Below are positions 3,554-62,161 of a stretch of 64,000 bases of DNA, piece after piece. This stretch comes from a virus. The number at the start of each line of letters is the position of its first letter. Position 1 is the first letter of the stretch. A program made the position numbers and the translations under genes. Below the pieces are notes generated by a model. That model had not been told where the DNA came from, searched no databases, and saw nothing but the letters and a program-made list of their open reading frames with translations. The DNA is taken from the IMG/VR virus record IMGVR_UViG_3300013111_000325, positions 52,898-116,897 of that record, one strand, 5' to 3'.

Positions 3554-4567
3554 ATGAGTATCTACATTGATCAAAAATTCATCAATTTACTCTCAGGACA
3601 ATTAGAACGATTTACACGCAAAAGAGATGATCTGTATAATTTCAGATGTCCTATCTGTGGTGATTCACAAAAGAAAAAACATAAAGCGAGAGGCTATGTC
3701 TATCGTAAAGAAAATCTTTTGTTTTATCGATGTCATAATTGTTCTGCGAGTATGAGTCTTGCCAATCTTATCAAGCAAATAAATCCTACCTTACATAAAC
3801 AATATGTTCTTGAAAGTTATACAAATAATGCTTCTACGTTTTCTCCAGTAGAAAAACCTGAATTCAAGTTTGAGCCACCTAAATTTTCTGATAGTCTTTC
3901 ACCTTTACAAAAATTGAAGTCAATCAATTTACTTAATGACGAGCATTATTGTAAAGAGTATGTGAATAAGAGAGGCATACCGAAAGAGCATCATAGAAAT
4001 TTATTCTATACAGAAAATTTTAAGACTTTTGTTCAAGGTCTTGAAATCTCCGATGTTGATATATATAAGCATCTTTATGAAGAGCCGAGGTTAGTGATTC
4101 CTTTCTTTGATAAATCACGGAAGATGTTTGCCGTTCAAGGACGAGCCCTAGGTCAATCGGACCTGAGATATATTACTGTAAGAATTGATGAACAATACCC
4201 TAAAATATATGGTCTTGATAGAGTTGATATAAGTAAGCCAATTTATGTAGTCGAAGGTCCGATTGACTCCTTGTTCATAGATAATTGTATTGCGGTTGCA
4301 GGTGGTGATTTAGTTTCAGCAATAAAACATTTCATTAATCAAGAACTGATATTTGTTTACGATAATGAAAGAAGAAATCGTGAGACAATCAAAAAGATGG
4401 AAGCAACAATTGAGAGACACCATAAAATAGTAATTTGGCCTCGGTACATAGAGCATAAAGATATTAATGATATGATTTTGAGTGGAATAGATGTTATAAA
4501 TGAGTTAAAAAATAATGTCTATTCTGGTCTAATTGCGAAAACAAAAATGTTGGAATTTAAAATATGA
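3554..4567 (+). CDS. DNA primase (T4 gp61 type)
   Basis: A 337-residue primase that makes RNA primers for lagging-strand synthesis with the replicative helicase. The N-terminus holds a zinc-binding domain with Cys32, Cys35, Cys60 and Cys63 (CPICGD and CHNC). The middle and C-terminal parts hold a TOPRIM-type core with IYVVEGPIDSLFI followed by LIFVYDNERRN. The length fits T4-type primases. It is the first gene after a consensus promoter and overlaps thyX by an ATGA. Confidence 0.88.
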   Translation: MSIYIDQKFINLLSGQLERFTRKRDDLYNFRCPICGDSQKKKHKARGYVYRKENLLFYRCHNCSASMSLANLIKQINPTLHKQYVLESYTNNASTFSPVEKPEFKFEPPKFSDSLSPLQKLKSINLLNDEHYCKEYVNKRGIPKEHHRNLFYTENFKTFVQGLEISDVDIYKHLYEEPRLVIPFFDKSRKMFAVQGRALGQSDLRYITVRIDEQYPKIYGLDRVDISKPIYVVEGPIDSLFIDNCIAVAGGDLVSAIKHFINQELIFVYDNERRNRETIKKMEATIERHHKIVIWPRYIEHKDINDMILSGIDVINELKNNVYSGLIAKTKMLEFKI

Positions 4568-5379
4568 AAATACATAAGCATGGTTTTGTGAAGTTATTAG
4601 AAGTGATGGGTAATGATGAGGAAGTTGAAAATGCCGCCCGAATTAGTTACGGTGAAGGTACACGGAAGGTTAACCAAACAAGAAACCTAATTCGTTATTT
4701 GATGAGACACAAACATACATCACCATTTGAGATGTGCGAAGTGAAGTTTCATATTAAACTACCAATATTCGTGATGAGACAACTTGTTAGACATAGGACT
4801 GCTAACATAAACGAATACTCTGGTCGGTACTCATTAATGAGTGATGAATTTTATTTGCCTGCTGAAGCCGATGTACAAGAACAATCAGAAACAAACAATC
4901 AAGGTCGTGGTCAAGATTTGGATCAAGAAAATAAAATTCTTGTTTTAAGTCGCATGGTTGCAACTACCGATCAGGCAAAAGAGTGTTATAGACAAATTGC
5001 TAACCCTACTCTTCTAGATGGATTTTATGAAGGGTTTAAGGGTATTGCAAGAGAAATTGCAAGAACAGTTTTACCAGTTTCAAATTACACCGAGTGTATT
5101 TGGAAAATAGATTTACATAACTTTTTTCATTTTGCAAAATTACGTATGGATGCTCACGCACAAAAAGAGATACAAGATTACGCAAGTGCAATGTATGAAT
5201 TGGTAAAACCACATTTTCCTATTTGTTGTGAAGCCTTTGAAGACTATATTTTAAACTCAAAGACATTTTCCGCCAAAGAGATGAGGATTATCAAAGAGAA
5301 TCTAAATGGAAGTTGGGTAATGGCAAAATATGGTCTATCAGAACGAGAATCAAAAGAATTTTTAGAAAAATTAAAATAA
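4564..5379 (+). CDS. thyX: Flavin-dependent thymidylate synthase
   Basis: A 271-residue ThyX, which makes dTMP from dUMP using methylene-tetrahydrofolate, NADPH and FAD. The family signature RHRTANINEYSGRYS lies at residues 76-90, and the N-terminal KHTSPFE segment is also typical. It overlaps the primase stop by ATGA and precedes nrdJ by 9 bases. The three genes therefore form one replication/nucleotide operon. Confidence 0.95.
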   Translation: MKIHKHGFVKLLEVMGNDEEVENAARISYGEGTRKVNQTRNLIRYLMRHKHTSPFEMCEVKFHIKLPIFVMRQLVRHRTANINEYSGRYSLMSDEFYLPAEADVQEQSETNNQGRGQDLDQENKILVLSRMVATTDQAKECYRQIANPTLLDGFYEGFKGIAREIARTVLPVSNYTECIWKIDLHNFFHFAKLRMDAHAQKEIQDYASAMYELVKPHFPICCEAFEDYILNSKTFSAKEMRIIKENLNGSWVMAKYGLSERESKEFLEKLK

Positions 5380-9491: not shown

Positions 9492-9550
9492 TTATTAATT
9501 ATTAGCGGTAAGGTGGAAGACTTACCGCTTTGTTTCTCGGAAGGAGAAAG

Positions 9551-10789
9551 ATGGACGATATTCAGTATATTCTGAATACTTTTTTGTTATTATTTTCTGG
9601 TGTGCTTGTTTTTTGGATGGCCGCTGGATTTGCAATGTTAGAATCAGGATTGGTGAGGACGAAAAATACGACCGCAATCCTAACTAAGAATGTTTGTTTA
9701 TATGCTCTTAGTTGTCTAGCATTCCTCGCATGTGGTTATTATCTCATGTATGGAGCCATGTCGGATGGAGACCATGCAGGGACCTCTGACTTCTTTTTTC
9801 AAGTAGTCTTTGTCGCAACAACCGCATCTATTATTTCAGGAGCAATAGCAGAACGAATGAGGTTTTGGTCATTTATGGTTTTTGTTCTTGTACTTTCCGC
9901 AATCATATATCCTATGCAAGGAGCCTGGACATGGGGTGGGGGATTTCTATCTGAGATGGGGTTCTCTGACTTTGCAGGATCTACAATTGTTCATTCAGTT
10001 GGAGGTTGGGCCGCACTTGCTGGTGTTCTATTATTAGGTGCCAGATCAGGTAAGTATACTGATGACGGAAAAATTAACTTGATTCCCCCTTCAAATCTTC
10101 CATTAGCAACTTTAGGAACAATGATTCTTTGGTTGGGGTGGTTTGGTTTTAATGGTGGTAGTCAATTGGCAATGGCTACTAAAGCAGATGTAAATGCTAT
10201 TGCAAGTGTGTTTGTAAATACAAATATTGCCGCCTGTGCTGGCGCTATTACTGCTATGATTTTGACTCAACTGTTATATAAAAGAGTTGATTTGACGATG
10301 GTATTGAATGGTGCATTAGCAGGACTAGTTTCTATTACTGCAGGTCCTGATTATCCTACTATGTGGTTAGCAACTGTTATAGGAATAATTGGAGCAGGAT
10401 TATGTGTACTAGCAATCCCTATGTGGGATAAACTAAAAATTGATGATCCGGTAGGAGCATTGTCTGTTCATTTAGTTGCTGGTATATGGGGAACATTAGC
10501 AGTAGGAGTGTTTAATCATGAAGTAAGTTTGATGTCGCAAATACAGGGCATTTTAATTATTGGAGCATTTGTTTTTGGCTCTAGTTTTGCAGTTTGGTAT
10601 GTTATTAAACTAGCAATGGGACTCCGGATTTCTTTGGAAGAAGAAACTCAGGGTATTGACATTGCTGAATTTGGTCATTCTGCTTATACGATAGGTCATG
10701 GTGAATTTGTTACTCATGACGAAATTAAATTAGGTAGAGGAACATTTGTTCCTGAAAGTGAACAATCTCTTAATTTGGTATCAAATTGA
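9551..10789 (+). CDS. amt: Ammonium transporter
   Basis: A 412-residue Amt/MEP/Rh channel that brings ammonium into the cytoplasm. I chose the ATG after AAGGAGAAAG rather than an upstream alternative. Visible signatures are WMAAGFAMLESGLVRTKN, the DFAGSTIVHSVGGWAAL segment with the pore Asp and first pore His, and SVHLVAGIWGTLAVGVF with the second pore His. The C-terminal GIDIAEFGHSAY is normal for the family. About ten membrane helices are visible. No GlnK/PII gene lies beside it. Confidence 0.93.
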   Translation: MDDIQYILNTFLLLFSGVLVFWMAAGFAMLESGLVRTKNTTAILTKNVCLYALSCLAFLACGYYLMYGAMSDGDHAGTSDFFFQVVFVATTASIISGAIAERMRFWSFMVFVLVLSAIIYPMQGAWTWGGGFLSEMGFSDFAGSTIVHSVGGWAALAGVLLLGARSGKYTDDGKINLIPPSNLPLATLGTMILWLGWFGFNGGSQLAMATKADVNAIASVFVNTNIAACAGAITAMILTQLLYKRVDLTMVLNGALAGLVSITAGPDYPTMWLATVIGIIGAGLCVLAIPMWDKLKIDDPVGALSVHLVAGIWGTLAVGVFNHEVSLMSQIQGILIIGAFVFGSSFAVWYVIKLAMGLRISLEEETQGIDIAEFGHSAYTIGHGEFVTHDEIKLGRGTFVPESEQSLNLVSN

Positions 10790-13744: not shown

Positions 13745-14206
13745 ATGGCTGAGCAAAAAACCAAAAAGCCAGAAGGTGTTGGTCAAGAAATAGAAACCGA
13801 AGGAGGAGAGGTTAGATTTGAACCTGTCAAAAAGATTGAAGAAGATACTTTTGATGCAGTAAAAAGTCTTAAAACCTTTATCTTCATAACAATAGGATTG
13901 CTAGTTTATTTGTTATTTCTAGTCATTCCTGGAATTGAAGAAAAGGTTGAATGGATTGAAAAGGATCTTACTTCGGTCTTGGTAACAAGCGAAAGATATA
14001 AGGCGGCAACGAGAGTATTTGCAAAAGGTAATGAATGCTCTACATGTCACCTTGAACCAGATTATCTCATATCTGGGCTCCAAGCGACTTATCCAAGTTT
14101 TGCTGATCTTAAAGCATTCATGACAATAGGTCATCAAAAATACTACACAATGGCAACACCCATGCCAGATGAAGAACTCATGAACATTTACAGGGTCCTC
14201 AAGTGA
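13745..14206 (+). CDS. Membrane-anchored c-type cytochrome-like protein
   Basis: A 153-residue protein. The start chosen follows AAGGGG by a good spacing. It has a polar N-terminus, one membrane helix at residues 44-62 and then a domain with a haem-attachment motif Cys98-Ser-Thr-Cys101-His102. A C-terminal TMATPMPDEELMNIYRVL segment resembles the distal-Met end of mono-haem cytochrome c. The topology would place the haem domain in the periplasm. It overlaps the AapJ-like gene by GTGA. Cytochrome identity is inferred from motif pattern only. Confidence 0.6.
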   Translation: MAEQKTKKPEGVGQEIETEGGEVRFEPVKKIEEDTFDAVKSLKTFIFITIGLLVYLLFLVIPGIEEKVEWIEKDLTSVLVTSERYKAATRVFAKGNECSTCHLEPDYLISGLQATYPSFADLKAFMTIGHQKYYTMATPMPDEELMNIYRVLK

Positions 14207-15678
14207 AGATTAAAATCTTTTTCGCTATGCTCACAATGTTTTGGATTCTTGGTATATCGCAAGGATATGTGCTCCAAGGGTCTGAAATGATTGAGATTGA
14301 AGCACAATTTACCATAAGAAATCGTCTTGATATTGATGCCATGATGAAACTCGCAGGTTATACTGAACGAGGTGATTTTCTTATGGAAATGGAAAATGTA
14401 ACAGGTGATCGTGATTGGGATCGTAATGTAGATAAAGGTGATACATTTGTCTTACCTTCTATGCACAAACCAGAACGACAATTCAATGAGGGTATCAATT
14501 ATAAAGAGATGATGTCACTCAATACTCCACCAGATAATGATACAGAAGAAGTTGAAGTCAATTCAATCATAAAAAAAGACGAATTAGATGCACTCAAAAA
14601 AGAATTAGAACGACTTAAACAAGTAGAGCAACAACATAAACAAAAGCATATGAGTGATATGTATGTTGTAGGTTCGGAATATAAACCTGGGTTTGGTGAT
14701 ACAGTCAAACGAATAAAAGAAAGAGGATATGTTGTGTGCGGAACATATGCTGATACACCAGGATTTAGCGAAGAATTTCTTAAAAGAAGTGACGGGGAAC
14801 CGCCAGGTTGGGTTGGATTTGATGTAGATATTTGTAGAGCATTTGCAGTAGCATTATTTCTTGATAAAACAAAGATAGAGTTTATTCCAATCAATGGTAG
14901 AACACGCTTTGAGAGATTGTTTGATGGCTCAATTGACATTTTATCTGCTACAACAACATGGACTTTTTCAAGAGATGTAGACTGGAGAATAGAGTTTTTA
15001 CCTACTGTATTCTTTGATGGACAGGGTTTCATAGTAAGAAAAAATCTTGGTGTCAAGAGTGCAAAAGATATGATGAATGCAAGAGTTTGTTTCAATACCG
15101 GTTCTACCGCCGCACAAAACATTAAAGATTTCTTTAATAAGTGGCAGATTAATTTTATACCGGTACCAGTACCACCATCAGATAGTCCAAAAGTTTATTA
15201 TCTTGATAATGATTGTGACATGTACGGTACAGATATGTCAGCATTAGCAGGGCACAAAGCACGATTTCAGTATCCAGAACGTCATGTTATATTACCAGAA
15301 ATTATATCAAAGGAACCTCTTGGACCAGCAGTAAAATATGGAGATCAATTATGGTCTGATATAGTAAGATGGACAGTCAATGTAATATTTTTAGCGGAGG
15401 AGTTGGGAATTACGTCACAGAATATAGAAGATTATATGGAGAATATTGATCCTGTGATACAACGATTTATGGGTGAGCGTAATGGAGGAGATTCACAAAA
15501 TTTAGGTTCCAAGTTAGGATTAAATGCTAATTGGAGTATAGAAATTATAAGACAGATTGGTAATTATGAAGAAATATATGAAAAACATGTTGGACCTAAC
15601 ACCGATTTAGGTCTCACGAGAGGATTAAACAAACTCTACACTGATGGAGGTTTGTTGTATGCACCCCCTCTAAAATAG
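14203..15678 (+). CDS. AapJ/BztA-like amino-acid ABC transporter binding protein
   Basis: A 491-residue exported protein starting at GTG with a signal peptide (residues 1-22). Residues from about 160 on follow the family 3 solute-binding protein AapJ/BztA closely: GWVGFDVDICRAFAVALF, GSIDILSATTTWTFSRD, DGQGFIVRKNLGVKSA, ILPEIISKEPLGPAVKYGD and a final GGLLYAPPLK. The roughly 150-residue N-terminal extension with a coiled coil (KKDELDALKKELERLK) is not part of the usual family. It could boost host amino-acid uptake by docking to a host permease. No permease gene is nearby. Confidence 0.82.
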   Translation: MKIKIFFAMLTMFWILGISQGYVLQGSEMIEIEAQFTIRNRLDIDAMMKLAGYTERGDFLMEMENVTGDRDWDRNVDKGDTFVLPSMHKPERQFNEGINYKEMMSLNTPPDNDTEEVEVNSIIKKDELDALKKELERLKQVEQQHKQKHMSDMYVVGSEYKPGFGDTVKRIKERGYVVCGTYADTPGFSEEFLKRSDGEPPGWVGFDVDICRAFAVALFLDKTKIEFIPINGRTRFERLFDGSIDILSATTTWTFSRDVDWRIEFLPTVFFDGQGFIVRKNLGVKSAKDMMNARVCFNTGSTAAQNIKDFFNKWQINFIPVPVPPSDSPKVYYLDNDCDMYGTDMSALAGHKARFQYPERHVILPEIISKEPLGPAVKYGDQLWSDIVRWTVNVIFLAEELGITSQNIEDYMENIDPVIQRFMGERNGGDSQNLGSKLGLNANWSIEIIRQIGNYEEIYEKHVGPNTDLGLTRGLNKLYTDGGLLYAPPLK

Positions 15679-22028: not shown

Positions 22029-23492
22029 ATGAAATCATTTAAGTCTTATTTAGCAGAACGCAGAAGAGGTGGAGAAGAGAAGAATCCAAGGGTTTCTGCT
22101 ATTAAGGCACTAGAACCTTATAAGAATGATAAAGATGTTTTCATTACCTATACACAAATTGAAAAGGTAGGTGTCAATCCAGGATCCAGTTATAATACTC
22201 CAAACGGTATCTATACATATCCTCTCAAAGAAGCATGGGAAAAATATTATGTCCCAGGAAAAGGAACTCTTAATGTACCCTTTGCTGGTGATTCCAGTTG
22301 GGTAAATGCAATCAAGATAAAATCAGATGCAAAAGTTATTAGAGATATTGGAGTTTCTTATAGTTCAAAGGAATGGGATGAAGATGTTTTAAAACTAGCC
22401 AAGATTTTTATAGATCATCCTTTTTCCAAGAAAAATTGGGTCCCAATACTAACCATGTTGCAGGGTGTCAATCTGTATGACAAGGTAGAAAAAGATTTTG
22501 TCGGAGTGCGTAAAGATTGGTATTTTGAAAATAGAGAAAATGTAATTTGGAATCTATTTAAGGCTATTAAACAACATGCTATGTATTCCGCATATAGTCA
22601 GACAATCGGTGGACAGATGTGGAATTTGACAAGAGAACTTGCGACCATTATCAAATATACAGAAATGATTGAAATGGATGCTATTGATGGAAATTCAGGA
22701 ATGGACGAATTTGAAATTTCTATTCAAAGATTGGAAAAACCTTTAGATTTATCCGATCAAACAAGAATGTTTTGGTTTAGATTCCATTCTGGATTTAGAA
22801 AAACGGCACCAAATGTCTGGACAGATTTGTGGTTGAAGATGGGATATGGTGGAGTGATTGACCGTTCAGAGAATGGAATAATACACGAAGCAGAACCAAT
22901 ACAAGGTGTGTTCTTTACAACCAAGGCTTTTGATGTTTTGGGCAGGTTCATGAATAAAGGTTACGAGAGAGTGAATATGAAAGGTCTTTATATTTTGAGT
23001 GGTCTTCGTGTGGGTAAGGATGAACTTGTACACAAATTGAAGAATTTTTTACACAAAGATCAATACAAGTCCCTTTGTGCTATTATTATATTTCACAAAA
23101 TAAATCAAATATTGGCAAAGTTTTTAACAAGTATGGGTTCTTCAGGTGATGCTGATCAGATTAGTGCCCAGGCACCAAAATATGTTATTAAAAGGGCTAA
23201 TGATAAAAAGACATGGTTGAAAGTAGACCAATTTGATCCTTTTGTTCCAAATAGTACACGAACAGTAGTTGAATTTTTAGAAAACGAAATAAAAATCTAT
23301 CCTGATAATCATACTCCTTCAAATTCAGTAATGTTTAAATACGATAAAATAATTCCTCCTTTTGCACTAGAAAAAGATTTATCTTCAACTTTAAATAAAC
23401 AGTCTTATATAAAAATGGGAATGATGTTAGATAAATCGGTAACTACCTTATTGAGCAACATGATAGAAGATGTTTTAGGTATAAAAATATGA
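22029..23492 (+). CDS. Putative capsid-packaged effector, unknown function
   Basis: A 487-residue protein with leader MKSFKSYLAERRRGGEE. It is followed by VFITYTQIEKVGVNPGSSYN and TPNGIYTYPLKEAWEKYY with a PFAGDS segment, and later GYGGVIDRSENGIIHEAEPI before QGVFFTT. I have seen this combination in leader-bearing proteins of marine T4-like phages but know no function. The compact N-terminal fold with NTPNGIYTYPL might be an enzyme. It overlaps the tRNA nucleotidyltransferase gene by ATGA. Confidence 0.6.
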   Translation: MKSFKSYLAERRRGGEEKNPRVSAIKALEPYKNDKDVFITYTQIEKVGVNPGSSYNTPNGIYTYPLKEAWEKYYVPGKGTLNVPFAGDSSWVNAIKIKSDAKVIRDIGVSYSSKEWDEDVLKLAKIFIDHPFSKKNWVPILTMLQGVNLYDKVEKDFVGVRKDWYFENRENVIWNLFKAIKQHAMYSAYSQTIGGQMWNLTRELATIIKYTEMIEMDAIDGNSGMDEFEISIQRLEKPLDLSDQTRMFWFRFHSGFRKTAPNVWTDLWLKMGYGGVIDRSENGIIHEAEPIQGVFFTTKAFDVLGRFMNKGYERVNMKGLYILSGLRVGKDELVHKLKNFLHKDQYKSLCAIIIFHKINQILAKFLTSMGSSGDADQISAQAPKYVIKRANDKKTWLKVDQFDPFVPNSTRTVVEFLENEIKIYPDNHTPSNSVMFKYDKIIPPFALEKDLSSTLNKQSYIKMGMMLDKSVTTLLSNMIEDVLGIKI

Positions 23493-25126
23493 TCAAATTT
23501 TCATCTTTTCTAACAGAGACCGCACAAAAAATTAACACAGTTCTATCTCCTGCATTAAGATCCGAAATAAAACAGAGAAATGGTAAAGTATATCAGATTG
23601 GTGGTGCAGTTCGTGATGAACTAATCGGTAAAATATCCAAAGATTTAGATTTACTTGTAACAGGCATAGAAACAGATGAATTGCAGGATATATTAAGCAA
23701 TCATGGCAAAGTGGATGCGGTTGGTAAATCATTCGGTATTCTAAAATTTCAACCAAAAGGGCAGACAGGCGAACCTCTTGATATATCAGTTCCCAGAGTT
23801 GATGTTCAAAGTACAGGAGGCGGCCATAAAGATTTTGAAGTAAAACTTGGTAAAGATATTTCTCTTGAACAAGATCAGTTACGCAGAGACTTCTGGATGA
23901 ATGCTATCGCCAAAGATATTGAAACTGGTGAGATGCATGATATTGAAGGTAAAGGGCAGTTTGATATAGAAAATAAGCAGATTAGCGTGATTAATCCTCA
24001 AGCATTTGATGATGATCCTTTGAGAATGTTGAGAGCAATTCAATTTGCTTCTCGTTTTGGTTTCAGCATAGAACCTGAAACTATGAAAGAGATCAAAAAG
24101 AATGCTGACAAAATTTCAACGATATCAGCAGAGAGATTTCAAGAAGAATTTCGTAAAATGTTTGAAAAATCTGATAATCCGAGTGTTGGTGTTCAATTGC
24201 TATTTGACACAGGTATTGCAAAACTTGTTATACCAAAACTCAAAGAAGTTGATAATTCTGTTGATAAGTTAGATAAAAAAGCATTCCCAGCGTTTCTTGC
24301 AATACTATTTAAAAATTATATGCATAATGCAGGTGAAATGGCCCAGAAAATATTTAAATTGTCTAATGCTGACAGAGTATCAGTTCAGTCTGTTATTGAT
24401 ATGGATAAAAATCTGAAAAATTTAAAAGATCCGATATTTATCGTTAGATTTATGCGAAATAAATCGGAGCAAGAAATAATGAATGTTGATGAATATCTGA
24501 AAACAAAAGGTACAAGAACTATATCAGATTTTGTTAATGAGATGAGAAGACGAAGAATACCCACAAATCTTAAAGAATTAGGTGTAAATGGTCGTGATAT
24601 GATGCGAGAAGGATTTAAAGGTGTTATGATCGGTGATGCTCTACAATGGATGCTTGAATTTGCAGTAAGAACAGGTAAGGCTGAAAAAGGTCTTTTAGTT
24701 CGTAAAGCAAAAGAACATTTTGGTATTAAAGAAACATTCTTTTATGAAGATGTGCAGGGATTTTATGCTTTGACCATAGATCCTAGATCAAAACTGGATA
24801 TTCAACAATATGCAAGTCATGAAATTGTTGTATCGGATCATGTTACTGTTGCATATAAACCAAGCGATCAAGTAGGTGAAATATTGAATTCTATGTTGGG
24901 CAGAACTTATAACATACAAGCACATACCTATATAAGTAATGATAGAATAGATGCGGCAATCGTAGATATACAGGGATTAAAAAGTGATAGAATTGCACAT
25001 ATTACAATATCTCACATAAAAGGCGCAATTCCTGCCGAATCTAATGATTTGATACAAAATTCGCAACATAAAGAAAAAATGAATATGAAATTAAGAGGAG
25101 TGCTAAATTTTTATGCACACACCTAA
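23489..25126 (+). CDS. tRNA nucleotidyltransferase fused to 2H-phosphoesterase-like domain
   Basis: A 545-residue protein. Residues 1-11 (MIKFSSFLTET) look like a capsid-targeting leader. Residues 30-250 are a class II nucleotidyltransferase: GGAVRD at 38-43, the metal-binding DLD at 52-54, RRDFWMNAIA and DDPLRMLRAIQFASRFGFSI. A domain with ELGVNGRDMM and GVMIGDALQWML follows. Residues about 420-545 add HVTV (His451) and HITI (His504), the paired HxTx motifs of 2H phosphoesterases. The combination suggests repair of tRNA 3' ends. CCA-adding versus poly(A) activity cannot be separated by eye. Confidence 0.8.
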   Translation: MIKFSSFLTETAQKINTVLSPALRSEIKQRNGKVYQIGGAVRDELIGKISKDLDLLVTGIETDELQDILSNHGKVDAVGKSFGILKFQPKGQTGEPLDISVPRVDVQSTGGGHKDFEVKLGKDISLEQDQLRRDFWMNAIAKDIETGEMHDIEGKGQFDIENKQISVINPQAFDDDPLRMLRAIQFASRFGFSIEPETMKEIKKNADKISTISAERFQEEFRKMFEKSDNPSVGVQLLFDTGIAKLVIPKLKEVDNSVDKLDKKAFPAFLAILFKNYMHNAGEMAQKIFKLSNADRVSVQSVIDMDKNLKNLKDPIFIVRFMRNKSEQEIMNVDEYLKTKGTRTISDFVNEMRRRRIPTNLKELGVNGRDMMREGFKGVMIGDALQWMLEFAVRTGKAEKGLLVRKAKEHFGIKETFFYEDVQGFYALTIDPRSKLDIQQYASHEIVVSDHVTVAYKPSDQVGEILNSMLGRTYNIQAHTYISNDRIDAAIVDIQGLKSDRIAHITISHIKGAIPAESNDLIQNSQHKEKMNMKLRGVLNFYAHT

Positions 25127-34183: not shown

Positions 34184-34292
34184 TAAAGAATTAGATTTAT
34201 CATGGAAGAATTTAGAAAAACAACAATATGAAAAACAATATGAAAAATTTAAATCTAGAAACATACCCTACAGGAAGAAGCCCGAAAGGTAA
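34143..34292 (+). CDS. Possible small basic peptide
   Basis: A 49-residue ORF rich in Lys, Arg and Gln (MEVRSREIIRKIIDKELDLS). It overlaps the preceding gene by 41 bases and the PEP carboxykinase start by 65 bases. It contains a small DNA tandem, two copies of CAATATGAAAAA. Support is weak; it may be a translational bridge or nothing. Confidence 0.25.
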   Translation: MEVRSREIIRKIIDKELDLSWKNLEKQQYEKQYEKFKSRNIPYRKKPER

Positions 34293-35460
34293 GTTCTATT
34301 TTGGTGAACGAGCATTATTGTTATGTAAAGAAAGACCAAAAGATTGTCAAATAGGATTTGAATCTGAATTTGATAGATTATATGATGACCTGTTTTCTTG
34401 TCATTATGAATACAAAAGTATGTTCAGAACATGTGGTATTGATTTCAATGTAGCAACGACAAGCGAATCCCACCACAGATTTGTCGGTAATATGTTCGGA
34501 CAAATCACAGTCAAATCACTATCAGCAATATCAGATGATTGGATTATATTTCACAACATGGAATATGAATCAGAACCAAAGGTCTATATACATCTCGATA
34601 GAAAGATAGTATTGATTGTTGGCACGAGTTTTCTTGGTGAGATCAAGAAGGGTGTGTTTTCAATTATAGGGTTTGAGATACCGCAGAAAAGCATGTTGCC
34701 AATGCATTGTTCAGCATTTGAATATCAAGATAATACTGCATTGATGTTTGGATTGAGTGGAACGGGTAAGACAACCTTGAGTGCAGACCCAGAATATGCG
34801 TTGATTGGTGACGATGAAATAGCATGGAGTGAGTTTGGATTAACTAATATTGAAACAGGATGCTATGCAAAGACTGATGGGCTAGATCGTGAGACACAAC
34901 CCACAATATTTGATGCTATGGAGAGTGCAAGTAAAGACGGTGTTCTCATTGAAGAGAATAAGGGTGTGCCAAACGCAAGAGCAAGTTATCCCATAAGATA
35001 TGTCAAAGGTGAGATTACATGCCATGCATTATTCAAGCATCCAAAGCATATATTCTTTCTATCACTTGATGCGACTGGTACACTGCCTGCAATATCAAAA
35101 GTAGAAGGTAAGACGATAAGAACTCTATTTGAGACAGGTTATACAAGTAAAATGCCTGGTACAGAGGATGGAGTGAATGAAATACAGAAGGTTTATTCAC
35201 CGTGCTTTGGTAGCCCTTTTATGCCATTGCCCGTGAATGTATATAGTGATATGTTAATGGACAGAGTAATTGAAGAGAATAGCAATGTATATTTGGTCAA
35301 TACCGGCATGAATAAAAGTGGAGAGAGATTTCCATTAAGTGAGACACGAGAAGCAATCAAAAAAGTATTGAATTATGATGTAGAAACTCGTGAGATTGAG
35401 TGGACTAATCCATCTCAACCTTGTAAATTGGGTACAATTAAATTAAATGAAATTATTTAA
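34228..35460 (+). CDS. pckA: PEP carboxykinase (ATP type), compact form
   Basis: A 410-residue enzyme converting oxaloacetate and ATP to phosphoenolpyruvate and CO2. The key elements are present: TGRSPKGKF with the substrate Arg, LGEIKKGVFSI with the metal/substrate Lys, MHCSAF with the metal His and the P-loop GLSGTGKTTLS from residue 175. They continue with IGDDEIAW with the metal Asp from residue 194, a GCYAKT segment, NARASYPIRY with the Arg, and LSLDATGTLPAISK. It is about 120 residues shorter than bacterial enzymes, mainly at the N-terminus and in loops. I have no way to test activity. Confidence 0.88.
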   Translation: MKNNMKNLNLETYPTGRSPKGKFYFGERALLLCKERPKDCQIGFESEFDRLYDDLFSCHYEYKSMFRTCGIDFNVATTSESHHRFVGNMFGQITVKSLSAISDDWIIFHNMEYESEPKVYIHLDRKIVLIVGTSFLGEIKKGVFSIIGFEIPQKSMLPMHCSAFEYQDNTALMFGLSGTGKTTLSADPEYALIGDDEIAWSEFGLTNIETGCYAKTDGLDRETQPTIFDAMESASKDGVLIEENKGVPNARASYPIRYVKGEITCHALFKHPKHIFFLSLDATGTLPAISKVEGKTIRTLFETGYTSKMPGTEDGVNEIQKVYSPCFGSPFMPLPVNVYSDMLMDRVIEENSNVYLVNTGMNKSGERFPLSETREAIKKVLNYDVETREIEWTNPSQPCKLGTIKLNEII

Positions 35461-36029: not shown

Positions 36030-36311
36030 ATGGAAACGAAATTCTCAAACCTTCAACCTGGTGACACTGGTAATGTAGTCGGATTCACCGAGGGTAGCAC
36101 ATCTTATCGAAGCAAATTGTTGGCGATGGGGATTGTTCCAGGCACCTCTTTCCATGTGATCCGCAAGGCCCCATTGGGAGATCCTGTTGAAATTCGGGTC
36201 AACGGCTTTAACCTTTGCCTTCGTCAAAAAGAGGCGGAAATGTTGAGGGTGGAAAAGGAACATTTTGATTGTGAAGGATTTAAATCCTTCATGGATGAGA
36301 GCCTTATATAA
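36030..36311 (+). CDS. feoA: Ferrous iron transport protein A
   Basis: A 93-residue FeoA-domain (SH3-like) protein: LQPGDTGNVVGFTEG, YRSKLLAMGIVPGTSFHVIR, KAPLGDPVEIRVNGFNLCLR and an EAEMLRVE end. FeoA supports the FeoB ferrous iron channel; no FeoB is present here, so it would act with the host one. The gene is visibly richer in G+C and uses different codons from its neighbours, which suggests recent acquisition. A 39-residue membrane peptide follows. Confidence 0.88.
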   Translation: METKFSNLQPGDTGNVVGFTEGSTSYRSKLLAMGIVPGTSFHVIRKAPLGDPVEIRVNGFNLCLRQKEAEMLRVEKEHFDCEGFKSFMDESLI

Positions 36312-38762: not shown

Positions 38763-38764
38763 AC

Positions 38765-38838
38765 AATGCTTAGGCGTCAGTAAGTCTAAAAGGGTCGCAA
38801 CCTTGAGCAACAGAGTGTTCTGAGTACGCCTAAGCATT
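38765..38838 (+). ncRNA. Candidate structured RNA closed by a 13-bp stem
   Basis: AATGCTTAGGCGT at 38765-38777 pairs perfectly with ACGCCTAAGCATT at 38826-38838. Between them two small hairpins can form, AAGG/CCTT around GTCGCAA and CAGA-GTGT-TCTG, giving a three-way junction. No promoter or terminator is visible next to it. It could be a regulatory RNA, a processing site or a DNA cruciform. Confidence 0.4.
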
Positions 38839-39006
38839 TTGAAATGGTAGTGAAACATCGTATTAGAAAACTTTGAGCGTTTCTTTGACAATTCTTAGGC
38901 GGACTTTGAATAATCAAACCCGTGTATATTCAAATATTCAAATATTAAAAAAGAGGTTTTTTAATGTATCTCCTGTGTATTCTCTCTCACGAGTGATCGG
39001 TTCAAA

Positions 39007-39431: not shown

Positions 39432-39459
39432 TTGACAATCCTTTAGAATTTGCTATACT
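39432..39459 (+). promoter_or_regulatory. Early-type promoter-leader module
   Basis: TTGACA at 39432-39437, a 16-base spacer and TATACT at 39454-39459, preceded by TTTGC as an extended -10. The leader continues TAATGTGAGTTGATGATTAA and then a CCTTTTCCCC and GAGGAAAG ribosome site. It drives the gene at 39503. Confidence 0.8.
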
Positions 39460-40080: not shown

Positions 40081-40108
40081 TTGACATTCCTTTAGAATTT
40101 GCTATACT
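40081..40108 (+). promoter_or_regulatory. Promoter of the candidate 0.6-kb RNA
   Basis: TTGACA at 40081-40086, 16-base spacer, TATACT at 40103-40108, with the same CCTTTAGAATTTGC spacer end as the module at 39432. Unlike the other modules, no start codon with a ribosome site follows; the leader diverges into a helix-rich region. Confidence 0.78.
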
Positions 40109-40114
40109 AATAAT

Positions 40115-40710
40115 GTGAGTGAGAGAGAGAAGAGAAATTCTCCTCTGTCAATGAAGACAGTGAACCTCTCATCGGTTAGCCTTCTGTAAACGAGCCCATG
40201 CTAAGGACTATTTCCTGTTTGGGTCTGAGGGGTTACTGAGAAAATCATAATGAGACAATACGAGATATGTGATTAAGAGATGGTCACGGCCCATATTGGG
40301 TAGCAGTGACACGCACATATCTCGTATTCCTCAAGAAAGGCTGATGTCTCTCTGAGGCCCTAAAGTGGTCTAGACGAAATATCAGAGAGACGGCCGAACA
40401 CCTCTATTAGGAATTGCTCAATGAGTATTGTTGACCAACTGACAATAGAGAGTTGTGGGACTGCTCTCCCCTAGTCACCTACAAAGGTTCGTAATGATGC
40501 GAGGTAGACGGCTGATGTGACGGGGAACGACAAATAAGAACACATGTGCATAAGACACATGGCAGGTTCAGTATGCACCTGTGTCCCAAGAAAATACGAA
40601 AGGTAGCCGAAGAAAAAAGCGGTAAGAGTTTTTCGCAAAGGTTCTCTGAAACAAAACCTATGCAGACTGAGCGGTGGCAGTCTTGGTGGGCCACCGTTGT
40701 TCTTTTTCTC
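40115..40710 (+). ncRNA. Candidate large structured non-coding RNA
   Basis: About 600 bases after a strong promoter and before a terminator-like hairpin, without a good ORF. Helices seen directly include CTGTC/GACAG (40145-40160) and a perfect 15-base pair AATACGAGATATGTG (40257-40271) with CACATATCTCGTATT (40314-40328). Nested within the latter are GTCAC/GTGAC and CCCA/TGGG. Further helices are GTCTCTCTGA (40346-40355) with TCAGAGAGAC (40382-40391), CTCTATT (40402-40408) with AATAGAG (40444-40450), and a GACACA/TGTGTC hairpin near 40555-40591. Size and layout recall large ornate phage RNAs such as GOLLD or ROOL, but I cannot assign a class. Confidence 0.55.
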
Positions 40711-40712
40711 TT
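40672..40712 (+). terminator. Terminator-like hairpin
   Basis: CGGTGGC at 40672-40678 pairs perfectly with GCCACCG at 40690-40696 across an 11-base loop, followed by TTGTTCTTTTTCTCTTG. It fits a Rho-independent terminator at the 3' end of the candidate RNA. Confidence 0.6.
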
Positions 40713-40869
40713 GACTTTTGTTGTGTTATATGACACAATGAAACTGAAGATAAGAGAGGACATGATAACCCTCTTGACCTCTTCCTCGTGCTAACGATTG
40801 GCAGTTAGCGGTTGAAAGAGACTTATCACCTCTGACAACAACGAGTAAAGACACGCAACAGTGTCAAGA

Positions 40870-40899
40870 CCCCAGGTCGGTTCGACTCCGGTCCTGGGG
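40870..40899 (+). other. tRNA T-arm/acceptor-like minihelix
   Basis: CCCCAGG, then TCGG, a TTCGACT loop, CCGG, a bulged T and CCTGGGG. The loop with its closing pair (GTTCGACTC) is a canonical tRNA T-loop and the stacked stem has about 11 pairs, but no D-arm, anticodon arm or CCA is present. It may be a tRNA mimic, an RNase P or nucleotidyltransferase substrate, or a tRNA relic. Confidence 0.4.
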
Positions 40900-40921
40900 A
40901 TTGCTATATGTACTGACATGC

Positions 40922-41619: not shown

Positions 41620-41952
41620 ATGGCTGAGAAAGTCGCAGAAGCAGAGGAAGCAAAAGAACCTGTTATCATGCCTTACAATAAGGACCAAGACAGACCTTAT
41701 AAAAATCCTAAGGTACAGTTCTTCAAGACATTTGATGGAGATGGAACAGAGATCAATGATTGGCAAACATTCCATAGGGCACACAGATATTGGTCTGAGA
41801 TTGATGTTAAGGATCAATTAAATATTATTCAGTATAGGTATAAACATCTACCAGAGAAGAGAAGATTTAGAGTGATTGATGAGGATGGTAATACAATACG
41901 TGAAGTAAATCTGAATGACGAAGCGAAAGCGACTGACGATACCGAAGAATAA
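41620..41952 (+). CDS. Hypothetical protein, tandem paralogue B
   Basis: A 110-residue protein with a leader of nine T then GGAGTATAA, as in the preceding gene. It contains KNPKVQFFKTFDGDGTEIND, HRAHRYWSEIDVKDQLNIIQ and an acidic tail. The C-terminal beta hairpin matches paralogue A. Function unknown. Confidence 0.55.
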   Translation: MAEKVAEAEEAKEPVIMPYNKDQDRPYKNPKVQFFKTFDGDGTEINDWQTFHRAHRYWSEIDVKDQLNIIQYRYKHLPEKRRFRVIDEDGNTIREVNLNDEAKATDDTEE

Positions 41953-61280: not shown

Positions 61281-61850
61281 ATGAGTACAAATGCATTAGT
61301 TGCTTTTTCAAGAAGTGATGGTTCAATTGTTTCAAGTTATGTTCATTATGATGGTTATGTGACTGGTCTGGGCGAGACTTTGCTTGAGCATTACAATGAT
61401 GAGAAATCAGCATTGGGTGTTTCAGTTGGCGGTTATTACTCAAGTCTTTCTGAAGATATTAATGCTTCACTTGAGAATTCGGTTCATACTGAAGAACCTG
61501 AGATGTTTGACTCTTTCAACGAGTTCCGAGATTATGTTGAAGAAAATGGCCATCTTGAATTTTGTTACTTGTGGGTAGATGGTCGTTGGATTTATTCCAG
61601 TTGGACAACTACTACAACTGGTGTTGGTCGTTATACTGAGTGGCATACATCTTTCAATGGTTTTGCTGAGTTGATTCCTGCGTATGTCAGAGAAGGGCGT
61701 AAGTTGGTTAATAGATACCGAGACATTGCTCTTGAAGATAATCGTGATACTGCTGAATATAATGAGTATGCAGATGCTACTGAGGTGATTGTTGACAAGT
61801 GGAATTGGATTGGTGTTAGCAACATCGCCAGAGAATTCATGGCGGCATAA
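61281..61850 (+). CDS. Conserved phage hypothetical protein
   Basis: A 189-residue protein after AAGGAGTTCAT. The start NALVAFSRSDGSIVSSYVHY followed by DGYVTGLGETLLEHYND is an uncharacterised family found in many large phages and some bacteria. Function unknown. Confidence 0.65.
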   Translation: MSTNALVAFSRSDGSIVSSYVHYDGYVTGLGETLLEHYNDEKSALGVSVGGYYSSLSEDINASLENSVHTEEPEMFDSFNEFRDYVEENGHLEFCYLWVDGRWIYSSWTTTTTGVGRYTEWHTSFNGFAELIPAYVREGRKLVNRYRDIALEDNRDTAEYNEYADATEVIVDKWNWIGVSNIAREFMAA

Positions 61851-61858
61851 ATAATTTC

Positions 61859-62161
61859 ATGTCGTATTCAAGATGGATTAATTCTACATTATATACTTAT
61901 TGGTGTAGTTCCCAAGCGTGTGGTAAGCAAGATGAACTTTTTGCTTGCCACACTTCTTTGGATGTAATGGGTGAACATATGTTTACCTATACAGAGTGTA
62001 AAGAATTTATACAAGATCCCGAAAAAATTTTATCTAGAGTAAAAGATGTTGAATTGACATCTGATGAAATAAAAGAACTGATAGGTTATATGTCAGAGTT
62101 TGTTTCGGATGTTGATTTGAGTTATGAAAGAAAATTAACTGAGTTACGTGGTGGACAATAA
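61859..62161 (+). CDS. Conserved phage hypothetical protein
   Basis: A 100-residue protein preceded by CATAAATAATTTC in place of a ribosome site. The start MSYSRWINSTLYTYWCSSQA is a known uncharacterised phage motif. It is acidic at the C-terminus and overlaps the oxygenase gene by 14 bases. Confidence 0.6.
   Translation: MSYSRWINSTLYTYWCSSQACGKQDELFACHTSLDVMGEHMFTYTECKEFIQDPEKILSRVKDVELTSDEIKELIGYMSEFVSDVDLSYERKLTELRGGQ

Follow-up and report, generated by a model that had tools for sequence, protein, structure and literature searches.

A large structured RNA with portable hairpin modules in a putative marine T4-superfamily phage

Few large structured RNAs have, to our knowledge, been described in phages, and their roles are not understood. 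ROOL is a large structured RNA of phages and prophages that is not known to have a protein partner, env-120 being 659 nt long, and GOLLD is a large phage RNA, also of unknown function, that has more and less conserved parts and in some cases carries linker tRNAs (PMC12286853). An RNA that is comparable to ROOL in its size of ~0.6 kb and its phage origin, and to GOLLD in having more and less conserved parts, was studied here in a window of 64 kb (the whole stretch of DNA analyzed), which forms part of a 116.9-kb IMG/VR record.

The locus and its genomic setting

The major head protein, DNA polymerase and primase encoded in the window matched PHROG families. The head protein was nearest to those of Pelagibacter phage HTVC008M and Methylophilales phage Melnitz (~61% identity), a UvsW-like helicase had its nearest match in Melnitz, and the source phage is taken from its sequence to be a marine T4-superfamily member. 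In the phage collection searched, nothing resembled the middle of the window closely at the DNA level. A UvsW-like helicase of 626 aa lies at L007:7550-9430; its relatives align to ~79% of it in two pieces, possibly reflecting an intein or insertion. Metabolic genes unusual for a phage were found at 9530-10789 (ammonium transporter), 34228-35460 (ATP-type phosphoenolpyruvate carboxykinase) and 14203-15678 (extracellular solute-binding protein), and the product of 36030-36311 has, by eye only, a FeoA-like appearance. In addition, noncoding DNA at 38764-38845 holds a long hairpin, AATGCTTAGGCGT paired with ACGCCTAAGCATT and followed by TTTG, which is possibly a small RNA or a terminator.

The first-pass annotation had described a promoter of the early-module type followed by about 600 bases without a good ORF, and both parts of this description were confirmed. 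The promoter (Table 1) differs at 1 base in 28 from a copy at 39432-39459, has similar copies elsewhere in the genome and is retained ahead of the RNA in two relatives, L043 and L052; transcription would start near 40115. Each forward frame of 40115-40700 contains 10 to 15 stops. The G+C content of the 600 bases from 40115 is 45.7%, within the top 0.07% of the 117-kb record, where the maximum starts at 40298.

Table 1. Features of the RNA locus, in window coordinates
Feature	Position	Strand	Description
Early-type promoter	40081-40108	+	-35 TTGACA 40081-40086; 16-nt spacer; TG before -10; -10 TATACT 40103-40108
Structured untranslated RNA, ~0.6 kb	40115-40711	+	Ends placed according to the promoter and the T-rich tail
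Hairpin A1	40127-40142	+	Loop GAGAAA; one compensatory pair
Hairpin A2	40145-40160	+	Loop AAUGAA; one compensatory pair
Stem B	40165-40171/40226-40232	+	CCUCUCA/UGAGGGG; also in L052 and L043, with a single change from U-G to C-G
Module L	40257-40328	+	15-bp helix (40257-40271/40314-40328) around conserved asymmetric internal loop (40271-40289 and 40301-40315)
Module K	40346-40391	+	10-bp helix (40346-40355/40382-40391); nearly invariant 26-nt loop (40356-40381)
Core domain	40432-40525	+	UGACCANNNGAYAAUAG with N1, M3, X1 and X2
N1	40448-40452/40464-40468	+	Core helix
M3	40469-40471 and 40474-40478/40517-40521 and 40523-40525	+	Core helix
X1	40479-40482/40504-40507	+	Core helix
X2	40490-40501	+	In core; loop AAUGAU
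R1 hairpin	40543-40561	+	Five pairs, all exchanged in L043
R segment	40562-40585	+	Adjoins R1; identical in L043
3' element P	40664-40696	+	S1 40664-40669/40678-40683 crossing S2 40672-40677/40691-40696
Probable second structured RNA	40742-40905	+	Behind promoter-like TTGACT-17-CACAAT (40711-40739)

Folding of the 598-nt RNA gave z = -3.9, and none of 100 shuffles was as good. The structure had been thought to end at 40712, but the structured region runs on to 40905, and folding of the RNA extended to that position gave z = -7.6 (only 20 shuffles). In a scan of 639 segments of 200 nt, 40201-40400 ranked second; some segments inside genes scored nearly as high or higher, and folding energy alone is therefore not decisive for the RNA. 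The best local folding score of the window (z ~ -5.4) was observed at 61801-62100, within predicted genes.

The stretch 40742-40905 is probably an RNA separate from that at 40115-40711. It folded with z = -4.45, a value equalled by 0 of 200 shuffles, and was not found in the relatives of the upstream RNA. It is ended by a tRNA-like T-arm/acceptor hairpin at 40870-40899, CCCCAGG-UCGG-(UUCGACU)-CCGG-U-CCUGGGG, which lies 160 bases downstream of the RNA and combines a T-loop-like TTCGACT with an acceptor-like 7-bp stem. A tRNA or tmRNA was considered and rejected, since ARAGORN and cmscan (E up to 5) were negative and only the T-arm and acceptor-like stem are present. A search of IMG/VR with the T-arm pattern returned three matches, all of them unrelated tRNAs. 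The phage encodes at 23489-25126 a protein with PolyA_pol and PolyA_pol_RNAbd domains, of the tRNA-nucleotidyltransferase/poly(A)-polymerase type and with 18 relatives in IMG/VR, and it is suggested for this reason that the hairpin could be a substrate of that protein.

Conserved pairing in the core and the hairpin modules

Relatives of the RNA were reached through phages with the nucleotidyltransferase gene, then through DNA motifs and then through a small neighboring protein. Four distinct relatives were found in IMG/VR, namely L052, L043, L057 and the sequence common to L029/L046 (G017) and L039, so that the comparison set comprised five distinct sequences including the window. L052 is 93% identical to the window over 471 bases and stops at its contig end, the L043 RNA is shorter and without the L/K domain, and the L057 RNA is rearranged relative to the window; a further record, G003, matches the window with 99% identity and breaks off inside the RNA. 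A covariance model of the core yielded no copies beyond the known relatives (41 related records, probable fragments according to IMG/VR), and pattern searches for K and L returned no phage besides those already known. Blastn searches of 50,697 phage records, with the region and with two of the relatives as queries, gave nothing, or two short matches judged to be due to chance, and a scan with the protein of 41620-41952 gave no relative. Two loci with the core motif in GTDB genomes were set aside as chance, having only the short motif in common.

In the core, 17 pairs of N1, M3 and X1 were proposed by hand, with a variable insertion inside X1 omitted by hand, and in the five sequences 85 of the 85 cells were paired and none was broken, while double-sided changes were present at 9 of the 17 pairs. 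No shuffle out of 500 did as well, and sliding the partners destroyed the pairing. RNAalifold, given the full alignment, found M3 and the greater part of N1 without guidance. In the 5' hairpins A1 and A2, 2 of the 10 pairs show compensatory changes and the six-base loops are conserved; in L057 the A1 loop differs and A2 is missing. A 12-codon frame over A2 (MKTVNLSSVSLL) was rejected as a tag or leader peptide, because neither G017 nor L057 preserves it and the fourth codon changes in step with the A2 helix. Taken over all hand-listed pairs, 24 of 69 carry double changes and none is broken, totals that are biased upward because the helices were picked by eye, so that more weight attaches to the subsets controlled by shuffling.

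The two long perfect helices of the first-pass annotation, those of modules L and K, are both present. The 15-bp helix of L is not kept at this length: in L057 (5051-5108) the outer helix is 7 bp, and L043 lacks the domain. Both sides of the internal loop are nevertheless kept in L057, and the inner stem is changed in a compensatory manner from GTCAC/GTGAC in the window to GTTAC/GTAAC. In module K of L057 (~4564-4609), 4 of 10 pairs are compensatory and the loop is identical to that of the window at 25 of 26 positions, including an invariant 8-nt palindrome, GUCUAGAC. Pairing of UGGUC in the K loop with GACCA in the core would be possible and is not claimed, K lying outside the RNA in L057.

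A chance intergenic stretch with accidental helices would agree with the unremarkable folding energy of two relatives, whose whole RNAs folded with z = -0.01 and z = -0.90, not better than shuffles (the L043 RNA did fold better than its shuffles, z = -3.2). However, the covariation of the core exceeds that of all shuffles and slides, and a helix of at least 10 bp closing a 26-nt gap, expected by chance with a probability of ~1e-4 per random position, is conserved at K in L057 with different letters. A chance origin of the core and of K is already refuted by the compensatory changes, and for the locus as a whole next to no weight can be given to it.

Downstream of the core, the loops of R1 and R are mutually complementary (GCAUA/UAUGC). 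A long competing R1/R helix can also be drawn; R1 is preferred, because five of five R1 pairs are exchanged in L043. At the 3' end, the G+C stem and T-rich DNA that had been annotated as a terminator are indeed there, S2 of element P being followed directly in the window by T-rich 40697-40711, but the stem belongs to a conserved element. Both crossing helices of this element are kept in the window and in L057, where S2 differs by two compensatory changes, which suggests that element P is probably an H-type pseudoknot and not a plain terminator.

Apparent module exchange and the proposed role of the RNA

The position of the hairpins was found to vary among the relatives. K lies inside the RNA in the window and upstream of the promoter of the RNA in L057. 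A further hairpin, Q (GTGTGGGTGTAGTCCC...CCCACAC in G017), belongs to the RNA in G017, and its L057 copy, with 98% identity across 61 nt, again precedes the promoter. L precedes the core in the window and follows it in L057, and L043 has neither K nor L. The hairpins seem to pass between phages as interchangeable cassettes. In L057, Q and K stand in tandem at 4492-4614, between a small ORF and the promoter of the RNA, and may there be parts of other transcripts or separate small RNAs.

The genes flanking the RNA are not the same across the relatives. This bears on a second reading, that of a cis-acting leader, terminator region or attenuator of an adjacent gene, with which the intergenic position and the stem with its T-rich tail would be compatible. 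The RNA has a promoter of its own, as do, to judge from promoter-like sites ahead of them, the downstream genes, and the portable hairpins together with the differing neighbors argue for a free-standing RNA gene; a cis element is accordingly regarded as improbable. A third reading is that of a replication-origin or packaging transcript, in which the DNA or an R-loop would matter and not the fold. In T4, phage promoters fire some origins by R-loops, which provides a precedent, but the compensatory changes keep RNA helices and not the DNA sequence, and this explanation is considered highly improbable.

The reading that we consider likely is that of a modular structured RNA acting in trans. The locus would be a free-standing phage RNA gene, the product of which is untranslated and presumably made early in infection as one RNA. 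Its constant part would comprise the 5' hairpins and the N1/M3/X1 domain, with K, L and Q as exchangeable cassettes, and the nearly invariant loops on freely changing stems would be putative binding sites, one being added by each cassette. As to how such an RNA might act in trans, the most likely single mechanism, put forward tentatively, is that of a scaffold or decoy, in which the RNA would hold or titrate one or more RNA-binding factors of the host or the phage, such as ribosomal, RNase or RNA-polymerase-related ones. More speculatively, and with a good deal of doubt, the phage RNA class may evolve by cassette exchange, the core staying constant while hairpins with invariant loops, each binding a different host factor, are plugged in, removed or moved and so tune host takeover.

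The fold of the RNA is backed by covariation, its core is defined, its small portable modules lend themselves to one-by-one testing, and its relatives serve as naturally occurring deletions and rearrangements. Any binding of host proteins by the cassettes would indicate which RNA-binding factors have to be brought under control early in infection by marine T4-like phages.

Comparison with known RNA families

A cmscan against all families of Rfam 15 gave no match at the gathering threshold, and the weak matches (E up to 5) resembled chance. The proposal of an undescribed structured RNA, made in the first-pass annotation together with the suggestion of such a search, is upheld by this result and by the abundance of compensatory changes in the relatives, in the core, in K and in the 5' hairpins. 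No published description of this RNA was found in the literature searched, the coverage of which was incomplete. A partial resemblance to a known family was seen in G017, where a 19-nt hairpin, GAGAGG-GAACAAG-CCUCUC, matches positions 19-37 of the 41 positions of Ocean-VII (RF03092) with 21.8 bits, and a similar hairpin, GUCGGG-AAACAAG-CCCGAC, is present in L057. However, the score is far under the gathering score of 53.5 and the window itself has no match, so the link would amount at most to a shared small hairpin, possibly by chance.

The main rival to a trans-acting modular RNA is a self-assembling particle of the GOLLD/ROOL kind, that is, a phage RNA that oligomerizes into a cage by loop-loop contacts. 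The RNA is similar in size to ROOL env-120 and likewise of phage origin (PMC12286853), and the palindrome of the K loop and the complementary R1 and R loops could form kissing contacts. On the other hand, neither the GOLLD nor the ROOL profile matches, the number and order of the cassettes vary and K and L are absent from L043, differences that would not easily be tolerated by a fixed symmetrical assembly. A cage of this kind is therefore held to be unlikely, and the modular reading is retained.

Among known kinds of RNA, ROOL and GOLLD come nearest (PMC12286853). The RNA differs from ROOL in that the ROOL profile gives no match, even with E allowed up to 5, in its variable cassette content and in lying outside a tRNA island; ARAGORN located the four phage tRNAs only at 54.2-55.8 kb, 14 kb from the RNA. 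GOLLD, by contrast, is often near tRNAs or carries them. The GOLLD model has a universally conserved 3' region and does not match, whereas the present RNA is shorter, has a central core and concentrates its variability in discrete hairpin cassettes. Long, untranslated and of conserved, covarying structure, it belongs to the known kind of large structured phage RNA, within which it would form a new class, with cassette exchange as the new feature.
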